Shown here: positions 15,954-41,561 of the stretch, piece after piece | How the letters are laid out: the number at the start of each line of letters is the position of its first letter | Position numbering within the stretch: position 1 is the first letter of the stretch | Assembly: GCA_937864535.1 (NCBI GenBank) | Contig: CALMJS010000015.1 | Coordinates: 124,001-188,000, forward strand | Origin: an uncultured Paracoccaceae bacterium | GTDB taxonomy: Bacteria; Pseudomonadota; Alphaproteobacteria; Rhodobacterales; Rhodobacteraceae | DNA length: 64,000 nucleotides | Direction of reading: 5' to 3' | Notes under the pieces: model-generated | Told to the model about the DNA's origin: nothing | The model's database searches: none | What the model saw: the letters and a program-made list of their open reading frames with translations, nothing else | Made by a program: the position numbers and the translations under genes

Positions 15954-15969
15954 TGGCACGGTGCTTGCA
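15954..15969 (+). promoter_or_regulatory. Sigma54 -24/-12 promoter (TGGCACG-GTGC-TTGCA) for flgB operon
   Basis: Exact consensus match 50 bp upstream of flgB. Confidence 0.9.
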
Positions 15970-37251: not shown

Positions 37252-38577
37252 ATGTACCTTTCAACGTCCCAGATCGTTAGTCAGAAACAATCGCTAGTTG
37301 TCACTGCGCAGTTGCAGCAGGCGATCCATTTGTTGCAGCTGTCGAACCAGGACTTGGCCCGCTTTATCGAAGAGCAGTCCGAAGAAAACCCCTTTGTCGA
37401 ACTCCGCGTCAAAACTCAGACGGCGCCTTTGCCGATCGCCCCGCGCGGCGGCAGCGATACAGATTGGGACCGGATTGGCAATCTGGCGGCGGACCCGGGT
37501 CCGTCTCTCTATGCCCATGCCACGGCCGAAGTGGATCGGCTGGGACTGTCGCTTGTGGACCGTCAACGGGCCGAGGCGTTTCTGGATGCTCTCGAGCCGT
37601 CGGGCTGGCTCGGCCAGTCTCTGGAGATGATCGCGCTCAACGGCGCGATGACCGTGACCGAGGCCGAACATTTGTTGACGGTTCTGCAAACCGTTGAACC
37701 GGCGGGACTTTTTGCGCGCAATCTGGCGGAATGCCTGCGGCTTCAGGCCGCTGAACAGGGTATTTTGAGCCCGGTCTTCTCCGCCGTGTTGAACAACCTG
37801 CCCAAGCTCGCCTCTGCCGATCTCAAGGGGTTGGCCCGCGTCTGTGCCTGCGAGTTGGACGAACTGCGCGCCGTCCTGCGCCAGTTGCGCGGCCTCAATC
37901 CCAAGCCCGGCGCGGTCTTTGACGGCCCGGTGTCGGCAGTGCGCCCGCCCGATCTGATCGTCACCCGTGGCGAAGACGGCTGGAAGGTCGACCTGAACCG
38001 GTCCACCTTGCCGTCCGTACATGTACGCCCCGGCGAGGCGGCCCGCAGCGTCAGCCGGACCGCCGAAGGCAAGGTCTGGGCAGAAGAGCGCGTCAACGTC
38101 GCCCGCTGGCTGCAGCGCGCGGTCGAGCATCGCAATATGACCACGCTCAAGGTTGGTGCCGAAGTGGTCAAGCGTCAGGCTGAATTTCTGGAGCATGGCC
38201 CTGCGCATCTGCGCCCGATGATCCTGCGCGAAGTGGCCGATGCCATCGGCGTGCACGAGAGCACCGTGAGCCGCGTGACGCAGGGGATGTTGATCCAGAC
38301 GCCGCAGGGAACGCTGCCGCTCAAGACATTTTTCAATGCCGCTCTCGGTCCGCGCGGTGATAGCGCCGGTAGCGCCGCCGCTGTCCGTCACCGGATCAAG
38401 CAGCTGGTCGCCAACGAAAACCCCGAGTGCCCGCTGTCCGATGACACGATCGTTGAAATCTTGGGGAAAGACGGCATCGAACTGGCGCGCCGGACCGTCG
38501 CGAAATATCGCGATATGCTGAATATCCCCAGCTCGGTCCAGCGTCGTCGTCAGGCCGTGGTATCCGGCGCGGTCTGA
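37252..38577 (+). CDS. rpoN: RNA polymerase sigma54 factor RpoN (flagellar paralog candidate)
   Basis: Glutamine-rich N-term QLQQAIHLLQLSNQDLARFIEEQSEENPF; VHESTVSRVTQGM; RpoN box ARRTVAKYRDMLNIPSS. Confidence 0.95.
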   Translation: MYLSTSQIVSQKQSLVVTAQLQQAIHLLQLSNQDLARFIEEQSEENPFVELRVKTQTAPLPIAPRGGSDTDWDRIGNLAADPGPSLYAHATAEVDRLGLSLVDRQRAEAFLDALEPSGWLGQSLEMIALNGAMTVTEAEHLLTVLQTVEPAGLFARNLAECLRLQAAEQGILSPVFSAVLNNLPKLASADLKGLARVCACELDELRAVLRQLRGLNPKPGAVFDGPVSAVRPPDLIVTRGEDGWKVDLNRSTLPSVHVRPGEAARSVSRTAEGKVWAEERVNVARWLQRAVEHRNMTTLKVGAEVVKRQAEFLEHGPAHLRPMILREVADAIGVHESTVSRVTQGMLIQTPQGTLPLKTFFNAALGPRGDSAGSAAAVRHRIKQLVANENPECPLSDDTIVEILGKDGIELARRTVAKYRDMLNIPSSVQRRRQAVVSGAV

Positions 38578-39299
38578 TCTGCGGGTGGCTTGGTGTCATC
38601 CTTGGAGGCACCGCCAAAGTAGAACCGCCCCTTCGGGTCAATCTTGCCATAGGCCGCATGGGCGCCCGCTTCGCTGTGGGCGGCGACGATGGCGTAGGGG
38701 ATCATCCCCATATTGACGCGGTCCAGGCGATAGAGCGTTGCTCCGCTGCGCCGCAGGATCATTCCGGTCAGGACGTAGACCAGCGCCCCGATCGGCCACC
38801 AGATCGCGGCAGAAATGGCGATGGCGGCGACGATGGCGGCGGCTGGTACCCAGAGCCGGTTTTGCAAAAGCCAGATCGGCGGTACGAGCAGCACCAGTGG
38901 GCCGGGGGTCAAAGGGTGCAGGTCATAGCGGCCATCGTCCGTCCTCAGCACCTCCCAATTGCGCATCGAGGCAGGGTCCTGCCGTGCCTCGTTCCAGGGC
39001 CGGGCTGGTACAGCCTCCCATTTGCCCAGATTGGGATGATCCGCCAGAACCGTGATGTCGATGTCCCCGCGTAGAAACGTCAGGGCCAGCGGTTTCCCGT
39101 TCGCCTGAATAAAGCGTTCGGTCAGTTCCTTTGAAGACCCGATAAACGCCTTGCCGTTGATCGCTGCCAGAACATCCCCGGCCCGTAGACCCAAGGCCGC
39201 GCCCGCGTCGTTGACGCGATACTCGCACAGACGCAGCGTCTTTTTTACGCCGGCATCCTCTGGGGCGTTGTCGTCTAGATCATAATCCGGGTCTGGCAT
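38550..39299 (-). CDS. PDZ-like domain membrane protein of unknown function
   Basis: AALGLRAGDVLAAINGKAF PDZ-like core; hydrophobic segments LVLLVPPIWLLQ and VPAAAIVAAIAISAAIWWPIGALVYVLTGM; downstream of MotF-like gene. Confidence 0.7.
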   Translation of the reverse strand: MPDPDYDLDDNAPEDAGVKKTLRLCEYRVNDAGAALGLRAGDVLAAINGKAFIGSSKELTERFIQANGKPLALTFLRGDIDITVLADHPNLGKWEAVPARPWNEARQDPASMRNWEVLRTDDGRYDLHPLTPGPLVLLVPPIWLLQNRLWVPAAAIVAAIAISAAIWWPIGALVYVLTGMILRRSGATLYRLDRVNMGMIPYAIVAAHSEAGAHAAYGKIDPKGRFYFGGASKDDTKPPADQTAPDTTA

Positions 39300-39317
39300 C
39301 TATGGCGTGGCTCGGAA

Positions 39318-40139
39318 CTAGGGAAAGCTGAACGGGTTGGCGGGGGGCGGCGTCGCGCGGTTGCTGCCTGATCCCGTTGTACCACCGCTTGTTGCCGGAC
39401 GCGAGGGCGTTGGCGCGGCGGGGGCGGGGGCAGGTCTGACCGCAGCCAGTTGTACGGTGGCCACCGCCGTCCGCAGTTCCTCGATCAGTGCGGTGATTTC
39501 TTCCTGATCCGCTGTTGACATGCCAGCGCCGCCCTGACCGGTGATCACCGACTTGAGCGACACGTCCAGCTCTGCGATCGACGCGACAATCGCCTCTTGC
39601 ATCATGGTCAGTTGCGCGGTCATTTCGGTGCCCATGCCCGCAGCCATCTGATTGCCGATCCCGGCATTTTCGGTGGCAAAGGTCGCCAGTTCGGTGGACA
39701 GCCGTTCCGTCGATTGCGAAATGGCCGTGGTGATTTCTGTATTCAGCGCGCCCTGCTGGTTGCCGGCCTGAGAGACGACCTCGCGCAGGGCTGCGGTCTG
39801 TTCGACCAACTGCGCCAGAGTTTCCGCCTGTAGTTCCGCATTCTCGCGCAGGTCCTTGACAGAACGGAAATAGACCAGCCCGGCAATCGTCGTTGCCATC
39901 AGCCCGCCCACCATCGCCCCGATCGCGAGGGCGCCCATCCTCTTGCCCTGGGTCTGCACCTTGGCGACAAAGGCATCATGGGCGGATTTCAGTTTCTCGA
40001 TATCGTCGGCGGCGTCATCGGCCAAACGCGCGGCGTCCAGCGCCTTGGTAATCGTCTCTGACAGCTCGTCCGCCTCGGAGGTGAAGTCTTCATCCTCTTC
40101 GATGACGGAGGTTGCTTTTTTGGCTCTACGATTACTCAT
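39318..40139 (-). CDS. Bitopic coiled-coil membrane protein, candidate MotF-like motor component
   Basis: Single TM (GALAIGAMVGGLMATTIAGLVYF), acidic N-terminus, long coiled-coil-like region, Pro-rich C-terminus; sigma54 promoter upstream. Confidence 0.65.
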   Translation of the reverse strand: MSNRRAKKATSVIEEDEDFTSEADELSETITKALDAARLADDAADDIEKLKSAHDAFVAKVQTQGKRMGALAIGAMVGGLMATTIAGLVYFRSVKDLRENAELQAETLAQLVEQTAALREVVSQAGNQQGALNTEITTAISQSTERLSTELATFATENAGIGNQMAAGMGTEMTAQLTMMQEAIVASIAELDVSLKSVITGQGGAGMSTADQEEITALIEELRTAVATVQLAAVRPAPAPAAPTPSRPATSGGTTGSGSNRATPPPANPFSFP

Positions 40140-40185
40140 GTCGGTCTCCGCTTGGGTTGCCCCAGATCAGGTTTCATGGGGTAAC

Positions 40186-40201
40186 GGCAAAATCCGTGCC
40201 A
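40186..40201 (-). promoter_or_regulatory. Sigma54 -24/-12 promoter (TGGCACG-GATT-TTGCC) for MotF-like/PDZ pair
   Basis: Reverse-strand match 47 bp upstream of the MotF-like gene. Confidence 0.82.
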
Positions 40202-40204
40202 CTG

Positions 40205-40420
40205 CTAGCGTCTGATCCAATCTGCCAGCGTTTGCAGCGGGAACCGCACCGCCGCCAGCGTGCAGGTCAGCGCCGAGAGCCACAGCAGGGCCCCTCCTAC
40301 CCAGCCGCCGGGCCAGAACATCGCGTTAAACGTCAGCTTTGCGGCCATGCCGGCAAAGACAAAGGTCGAAATCATCTCGCCGGTGGACCGGCCTTTCTTG
40401 GGACATTTAGCCATTGCCAT
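40205..40420 (-). CDS. Small hydrophobic protein, unknown function, coupled to flhB
   Basis: 71 aa with two hydrophobic segments; overlaps flhB 3' end by 14 bp. Confidence 0.6.
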   Translation of the reverse strand: MAMAKCPKKGRSTGEMISTFVFAGMAAKLTFNAMFWPGGWVGGALLWLSALTCTLAAVRFPLQTLADWIRR

Positions 40421-41561
40421 CCTCCAAGGGGCGACCGTGTTCGTTCAGGCGCAGCTCGCTCGGCAGGTCGATATCGGGGGCTTCGCCTTTGAACCCGTGG
40501 TCGACGTGGTACACATAGCCGAGAAGGATCGCGACGGCGGTAAACAGGCGCTCGTCGATCTCTTGGCCGATTTCGGTGGTGAAATACAGTGCACGGGCCA
40601 GCAGGGGCATGCTGATGGTCTGAACGCCCGCCGTGGCACCGATCCGCCGGATTTCCGCAGCGATATGCCCCGTGCCCGAGGCGATGACCTGCGGGGCGGC
40701 CATTTCCCCCGGCACATAGCGCAGCGCAACGGCAAAGTGGGTCGGGTTGGTCACAATAGCCGTCGCGGTCGGCACATCCTTGAGTGCGGCGCGTTCGCGC
40801 GATCCACGGCGTGACATTTCCATTTGCTTTTGGCGGATCTTGCCCTTGAGCTCGGGCGAGCCGTTGGCCTCTTTGCTCTCTTCCTTGACCTCCTGGAAGG
40901 TCATCATCAGGCTTTGCCGCATCGAATACATTTGCCAGCCTAGGTCGATGGCCCCGATCAGCGCCAGAACCCCGGTCATACCGCCGAGTAGCAGCACCAT
41001 ATCCTCGAGGATGATCGCCAGCCCTTCGCCGGTATCGGTGGCCCACAGACGGTCGATCCGCGGCAGCATGCCATAGAGCAGCCCGCCCGCGACGGCGGCC
41101 AGCATCGCGACCTTGAGCACGCCCTTGACCAGTTCGACCAGCGCCTGTTTCGACACCATGCGGCCGATGCCTTTGATCGGGTCCAGCTTTTCAGGCTTGA
41201 ACCCGATGGCTTTGGGCGCAAACTGAATGCCGCCCATTGCGCCCTGCAGGCCCAGAACACCGATGGCGACGGGCACGGCCACCGCCAGCCCCAGCAGCAG
41301 GGTTTGCCGCCATGCATCGCCCAGACGGGTCAAGAGCAGACTGTCGAGATCGGCGCCCTGCTGGATTTGCAGATAACCCGCCCAGATCCCGCTGACGGTG
41401 GATAGCATGCCTTGGGTAATCGCCAGCAACAGCGTGCCCATGCCGATGCCGATAAAAACGAACATTTCCTTGGAGGTGACGATCTTGCCTTCTTCGCGCG
41501 CTTTCTCTTTGCGCTTTTCGGTTGGCTCATTTGATCGTTCGCCGCTGTCGTCCTCAGCCAC
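40407..41561 (-). CDS. flhB: Flagellar export protein FlhB
   Basis: EKRKEKAREEGKIVTSKEM start and TNPTHFAVALRY autocleavage motif. Confidence 0.97.
   Translation of the reverse strand: MAEDDSGERSNEPTEKRKEKAREEGKIVTSKEMFVFIGIGMGTLLLAITQGMLSTVSGIWAGYLQIQQGADLDSLLLTRLGDAWRQTLLLGLAVAVPVAIGVLGLQGAMGGIQFAPKAIGFKPEKLDPIKGIGRMVSKQALVELVKGVLKVAMLAAVAGGLLYGMLPRIDRLWATDTGEGLAIILEDMVLLLGGMTGVLALIGAIDLGWQMYSMRQSLMMTFQEVKEESKEANGSPELKGKIRQKQMEMSRRGSRERAALKDVPTATAIVTNPTHFAVALRYVPGEMAAPQVIASGTGHIAAEIRRIGATAGVQTISMPLLARALYFTTEIGQEIDERLFTAVAILLGYVYHVDHGFKGEAPDIDLPSELRLNEHGRPLEDGNG

Follow-up and report, generated by a model that had tools for sequence, protein, structure and literature searches.

The flagellar cluster in the window (the whole stretch of 64,000 nucleotides analysed here) contains two adjacent genes, A and PDZ, that lie between flhB and a sigma-54 gene of the rpoN2 type, behind a sigma-54 promoter of their own. 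The question raised by this locus is what these genes contribute to the flagellum and, in particular, whether the second one, which encodes a membrane protein with a PDZ-like domain, is an overlooked part of the motor.

Gene order and the sigma-54 promoter

The cluster belongs to the type named Fla1 in Rhodobacter (Cereibacter) sphaeroides, which also goes by fla3-type (PMC12363192). On the minus strand, the order of the genes is fliF, fliG, fliH, fliI, fliK, fliM, fliP, fliQ, fliR, flhB, a gene for a small hydrophobic protein, A and PDZ; fliC and rpoN are encoded on the plus strand, convergent with the minus-strand genes. The coordinates that the preliminary description had assigned to the sigma-54 site, A and PDZ are all correct (Table 1): the two open reading frames encode 273 and 249 amino acids and are separated by 18 bp, and PDZ and rpoN share 28 bp where their 3' ends meet (38550-38577).

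Table 1. Features of the A-PDZ unit and of its immediate surroundings in the window
Feature	Coordinates	Strand	Basis or remark
rpoN2-type sigma-54 gene, convergent with PDZ	37252..38577	+	context
Gene PDZ, PDZ-DUF2628-like membrane protein, 249 aa	38550..39299	-	
DUF2628-like PPxWLLxxRLW segment and membrane hairpin, residues about 133-185	38745..38903	-	
Truncated HtrA-type PDZ core, residues about 19-90	39030..39245	-	
Gene A, MotF-like, predicted bitopic coiled-coil protein, 273 aa	39318..40139	-	family search; size and transmembrane segment of relatives agree with published MotF
Conserved C-terminal tail of A, NPFSFP; family pattern hydrophobic-x-[F/Y/I]-P-COOH	39321..39338	-	
Transmembrane segment of A, residues 71-91	39867..39929	-	hydropathy
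Sigma-54 -24/-12 element of the A-PDZ unit, TGGCACG-GATT-TTGCC	40186..40201	-	kept upstream of A in 30/35 related loci, also on the Octadecabacter plasmid
Small hydrophobic protein gene between flhB and A, about 71 aa, motif RSxGEMIST	40204..40416	-	
flhB, Fla1 type	40407..41561	-	context; co-occurrence marker

The near-perfect -24/-12 element previously proposed upstream of A is indeed present. The sequence TGGCACGGATTTTGCC (40186-40201, minus strand) is located directly after the stop codon of the small hydrophobic gene, 46 bp from the ATG of A, and fits GG-N10-GC with the TGGCAC-N5-TTGC consensus. The window contains 5 copies of the near-perfect pattern, TGGCACRNNNNTTGCH, compared with 0.06 expected from shuffles; the other sites start at 15954, 19633, 43679 and 47169, and two of these precede fliP and fliK. 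Only the near-perfect form is informative because the looser pattern, with two mismatches allowed, is not above chance (18 occurrences in the window against 12.95 expected). Stringent matches are found at a near-constant place, 202-297 bp upstream of the codons for the A transmembrane segment, in 30 of the 35 related loci, against an expectation of 0.026 per region.

The small hydrophobic protein encoded ahead of this element shows the pattern RSxGEMIST ... ALRFxI. It is present in most relatives and missing from genomes G308 (locus L084) and G083 (locus L085), and the window copy has no Pfam family. Its gene is probably transcribed together with flhB, and it is the third member of the A-PDZ neighbourhood. 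A four-cysteine small protein (C-x2-C ... C-x2-F ... CA) is encoded between flhB and A in divergent relatives, namely L217 (10352-10546) as well as L025, L094, L095, L098, L102 and L110-L113; it was not found in the window.

Gene A and MotF

Of the earlier characterization of A as a single-TM, coiled-coil protein, the single transmembrane segment (residues 71-91) is borne out by hydropathy; the structure model of A is all helical, of very low confidence and unusable (pLDDT 43; the predictions for both A and the PDZ protein were built from 5 sequences). The N-terminal part of the protein is acidic and includes an amphipathic helix; further features are a long region for which helix is predicted with very low confidence, a proline-rich stretch and a C-terminal tail that is conserved in the family. 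A falls into no Pfam or NCBIfam family, and the match to phrog_1499 (E 6e-4) and other weak Pfam matches were discarded as coiled-coil noise.

In the Fla1 system of R. sphaeroides, MotF is reportedly required for rotation, a requirement said to be suppressed by mutations in the MotB plug. To our knowledge, MotF is among the few proteins known to activate stators via this plug, and studies of it are confined to R. sphaeroides. The published protein is 24 kDa in size, with a transmembrane segment at 54-74 and a large periplasmic C-terminal part, and acts on the MotB plug (PMC7277832). The same size range and topology are found in the relatives of A from loci L084, L085 and L088 (24.8-25.1 kDa, transmembrane segment 54-74), with the L084 protein (24.9 kDa) reproducing the published values, whereas the window protein is longer at the N-terminus. 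In L084, the gene order is fliC-rpoN-A-flhB, A being the sole gene between flhB and rpoN, and in R. sphaeroides, the hypothetical gene RSP_0067 comes next after flhB, RSP_0066 (PMC9779115). In the window, A is likewise located between flhB and rpoN2. We take RSP_0067 to be motF and RSP_0068 to be rpoN2. The MotF-like character proposed previously agrees with the published protein in position, size and topology. Matched by neighbourhood, size and topology against these values, A is very probably the MotF orthologue. A tblastn search of plasmids with window A, window PDZ and L084 A gave no match, and a search of genome contigs with the RpoN2 alignment gave no Cereibacter record among the 600 matches listed.

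The PDZ protein and its distribution

The PDZ-like assignment of the second gene product stands although the Pfam PDZ score, 22.1 bits, is under the cut-off of 27. A profile of six relatives matches the PDZ domain of DegP with an E-value of 1.2e-6, profile positions 11-83 aligning to DegP 382-452, and Foldseek superimposes the core of the model (pLDDT 72) on the DegP PDZ domain with an rmsd of 2.1 A over 69 columns. Residues 1-17 form a disordered acidic tail in the model, and there is no counterpart of the carboxylate-binding loop and ligand strand N-terminal of residue 19. Canonical peptide binding is therefore unlikely because the PDZ core begins after the strand that bears the loop. The protein contains no protease domain; the PDZ core is followed by a PPxWLLxxRLW motif, a hydrophobic hairpin and then a short beta-alpha element. 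The motif and hairpin resemble DUF2628 (PF10947, cut-off 23), with scores of 30.6 bits in L110, 27.3 in L102 and 14.9 in the window. Because inspection reveals no signal peptide and the two flanks of the hairpin are rich in K/R over D/E (56:14 and 122:45 over 33 proteins), both ends of the protein are predicted to reside in the cytoplasm and, judging from this topology, the PDZ core is probably cytoplasmic as well. We know of no function for DUF2628, and the literature searched contained no paper on the function of this domain or on any PDZ protein of a Fla1-type flagellum.

The distribution of the two genes was analysed in 397 genomes from 396 genera of the window's family, in which FlhB separates 27 genomes with at least 39% identity (E <1e-78), taken as Fla1-type, from the rest, with no more than 37% (E >1e-48). 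Full-length PDZ is present in 25/27 of the Fla1-type genomes and in 0/370 of the others (Fisher P 1.3e-37), and A in 26/27 versus 0/370 (P 6.8e-40); the independence implied by these P-values is overstated, given the kinship of the genera and the ability of the cluster to move en bloc. The exceptions are G308, where A is present and PDZ absent, and G109, where both are undetected. In the latter genome, the Fla1-type flhB (L189, 5933-7087) is the last gene of the cluster. Weak PDZ matches elsewhere (E about 1e-4), mostly of ~50 residues inside open reading frames of 430-610 amino acids, were rejected as generic PDZ domains. A second sample of the family, searched with a profile including L084 A, returned almost only genera already seen.

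Outside this family, PDZ was identified in four other families of the class (sample of 186 genomes), with A in three of the four. In G044, G577 and G531, the A-PDZ pair has the same order, whereas the contig of G536 stops within PDZ, ahead of any A. The order flhB-A-PDZ and the sigma-54 site before A recur in other alphaproteobacterial families, and named HIMB59 and Marivita contigs also carry the pair (among the matches listed). In a phylum-wide sample of 160, no PDZ was found apart from that of the window's own genome. The small transmembrane gene, the sigma-54 site, A and PDZ are all present together on plasmid pOA238_118 of Octadecabacter arcticus, where the A and PDZ proteins are annotated as hypothetical (WP_245581584.1 and WP_015497643.1). 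In the Fla1-type cluster of this plasmid (L217, NC_020909.1), an IS21-like element lies between rpoN and motB.

In the HIMB59-type loci, PDZ is followed by a gene for a ribosome recycling factor-like protein (L112 4954-5550, L111 4895-5491, L113 5054-5647, L025 8471-9067; PF01765, E 3e-12 in L112).

A candidate motor component and its known counterparts

On every contig that carries both genes, A and PDZ are neighbours, and in each locus with both, the PDZ frame starts no more than 35 bp from the A stop codon. Given the observed gene structure, promoter, domain make-up, conservation, synteny and co-occurrence, we assign a probability of about 0.55 to the reading that the unit is a sigma-54-driven operon for MotF together with a hitherto undescribed protein that is accessory to the same motor. 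With fairly high confidence, the PDZ protein is a component of the Fla1-type flagellum, and somewhat more probably than otherwise, we infer, its action is tied to MotF or the stator and not to another part of this flagellum. In this scheme, A and PDZ would be co-expressed from the one sigma-54 promoter. MotF would be anchored by its single transmembrane segment, its short amphipathic helix, which is conserved, lying on the cytoplasmic side and its long coiled coil lying in the periplasm and ending in the conserved hydrophobic-x-aromatic-proline tail, and, following the published work on R. sphaeroides, would help to open the MotB plug and the stator channel. The DUF2628-like hairpin would hold the PDZ protein in the inner membrane, leaving the PDZ core and the C-terminal domain in the cytoplasm, where the protein would most likely help to place or stabilize MotF or a MotF-stator assembly at the base of the flagellum. 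This contribution is not universally needed for MotF because G308 possesses MotF without PDZ, and the synteny by itself might stem from linkage with flhB.

In nearly all loci, fliPQR-flhB immediately precede the A-PDZ pair. The PDZ protein might aid assembly or substrate switching at the cytoplasmic face near FlhB and FliPQR, its closeness to MotF being a matter of gene order, and the predicted cytoplasmic core would indeed face the export gate. We consider such a role in export unlikely: the conserved promoter separates the pair from flhB, G308 contains flhB without PDZ, and PDZ is coupled to A rather than to flhB. In L088, flhB has an inverted orientation and another place, yet the pair remains together beside rpoN.

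HtrA-type PDZ domains read C-termini, and the C-terminal pattern encoded just ahead of the PDZ gene, found in the window and 33 family members and also in L214 and L217 (with one exception, L216), suggests a pair in which the PDZ groove binds the MotF tail and controls the assembly or turnover of MotF. The tail is conserved at the protein level, given that its codons vary among the members; this variation, together with its retention as VYSFP in G308 without PDZ, led us to reject a nucleotide-level signal. Binding by PDZ does not explain the tail either because G308 keeps it without any PDZ gene and because it should be periplasmic (PMC7277832), opposite a PDZ protein without a signal peptide and with K/R-rich hairpin flanks, the core of which, as described above, lacks the strand for carboxylate binding. 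The cytoplasmic helix pattern of MotF is also conserved in G308, so this helix is not there solely for PDZ binding. Altogether, a PDZ-ligand pair appears improbable.

Comparably improbable is a signalling adaptor, in which the PDZ protein would, from the cytoplasm, connect the motor with a signal from inside the cell, for example as a brake or a gate. In the L097-L101 relatives, PDZ is followed by tandem small open reading frames (L098 6553-7271, L101 7036-7757, L100 9637-10312, L097 4518-5233), and all 6 of the 6 scanned match cNMP_binding, one below the cut-off; by this similarity, they are possible motor regulators, but neither the window nor most relatives have them. A general membrane quality-control factor hitchhiking in the flagellar cluster, suggested by the frequency of PDZ domains in proteases and chaperones and by the uncharacterized DUF2628 part, is very unlikely given the absence of a protease domain, the 0/370 family genomes with full-length PDZ outside Fla1-type flagella and the conserved flagellar-type promoter.

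The interpretation first offered for the locus is partly supported. It stood to be refuted by a lack of similarity between A and MotF or of co-occurrence of PDZ with sigma-54-type flagella, and it withstood both checks: A agrees with MotF in position, size and topology, and the co-occurrence is near-perfect. The action of the PDZ protein on the stator or MotF, or in quality control, is a proposal that gained no direct support; the protein lacks a protease domain and the ligand-binding strand, and one relative keeps MotF without it. The PDZ gene is well placed as a candidate for a motor part that has been overlooked. A more far-reaching view, which we put forward tentatively, is that the inner-membrane PDZ-DUF2628 protein is a new structural or activating component that cooperates with MotF in stator engagement from the cytoplasmic side, was lost in the MotF-only lineage resembling the laboratory model, and forms with the RSxGEMIST protein a three-gene motor module that escaped study. 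PDZ is conserved with MotF almost throughout the Fla1-type flagella and absent from the relative with an R. sphaeroides-like gene order; this absence may explain why it was overlooked, and the model would lack a motor part that most relatives have. The PDZ protein would also provide a cytoplasmic handle on the placement of MotF.

Comparison with known systems places A closest to MotF of R. sphaeroides Fla1, with which it shares the position beside flhB and rpoN2, the sigma-54-type flagellum and the large periplasmic C-terminal part; the relatives of A share in addition the single transmembrane segment at 54-74 and the size of 24-25 kDa, unlike the longer window protein (273 amino acids, transmembrane segment 71-91). 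The published R. sphaeroides system is described without a PDZ partner, in contrast to the window. MotF has been termed Rhodobacteraceae-restricted; relatives of A, however, occur in other families, which would widen its range from one to at least four alphaproteobacterial families. The 'MotF' of Sinorhizobium and Agrobacterium shares the name and a role in stator activity yet is a different protein, a FliL paralogue as far as a reference in PMC9812332 indicates. As to the PDZ protein, DUF2628 membrane proteins have the same PPxWLLxxRLW motif and hairpin but neither the N-terminal PDZ fusion nor the flagellar gene context, and the window score is below the cut-off. The PDZ domains of DegP/HtrA and RseP have the same fold over about 70 residues, whereas the window protein lacks a protease domain and the N-terminal ligand-binding strand. 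Finally, PflC of Campylobacter jejuni is a degenerate HtrA-related PDZ module of the flagellar motor without a conserved ligand-binding loop, as the window protein would be. PflC is periplasmic and carries two PDZ domains beside a dead protease domain, whereas the window protein is a membrane protein with one truncated, probably cytoplasmic PDZ domain and a DUF2628-like hairpin; the comparison covers the PDZ fold. PflC nonetheless provides a precedent for a degenerate PDZ protein as a flagellar motor scaffold (PMC12222027).
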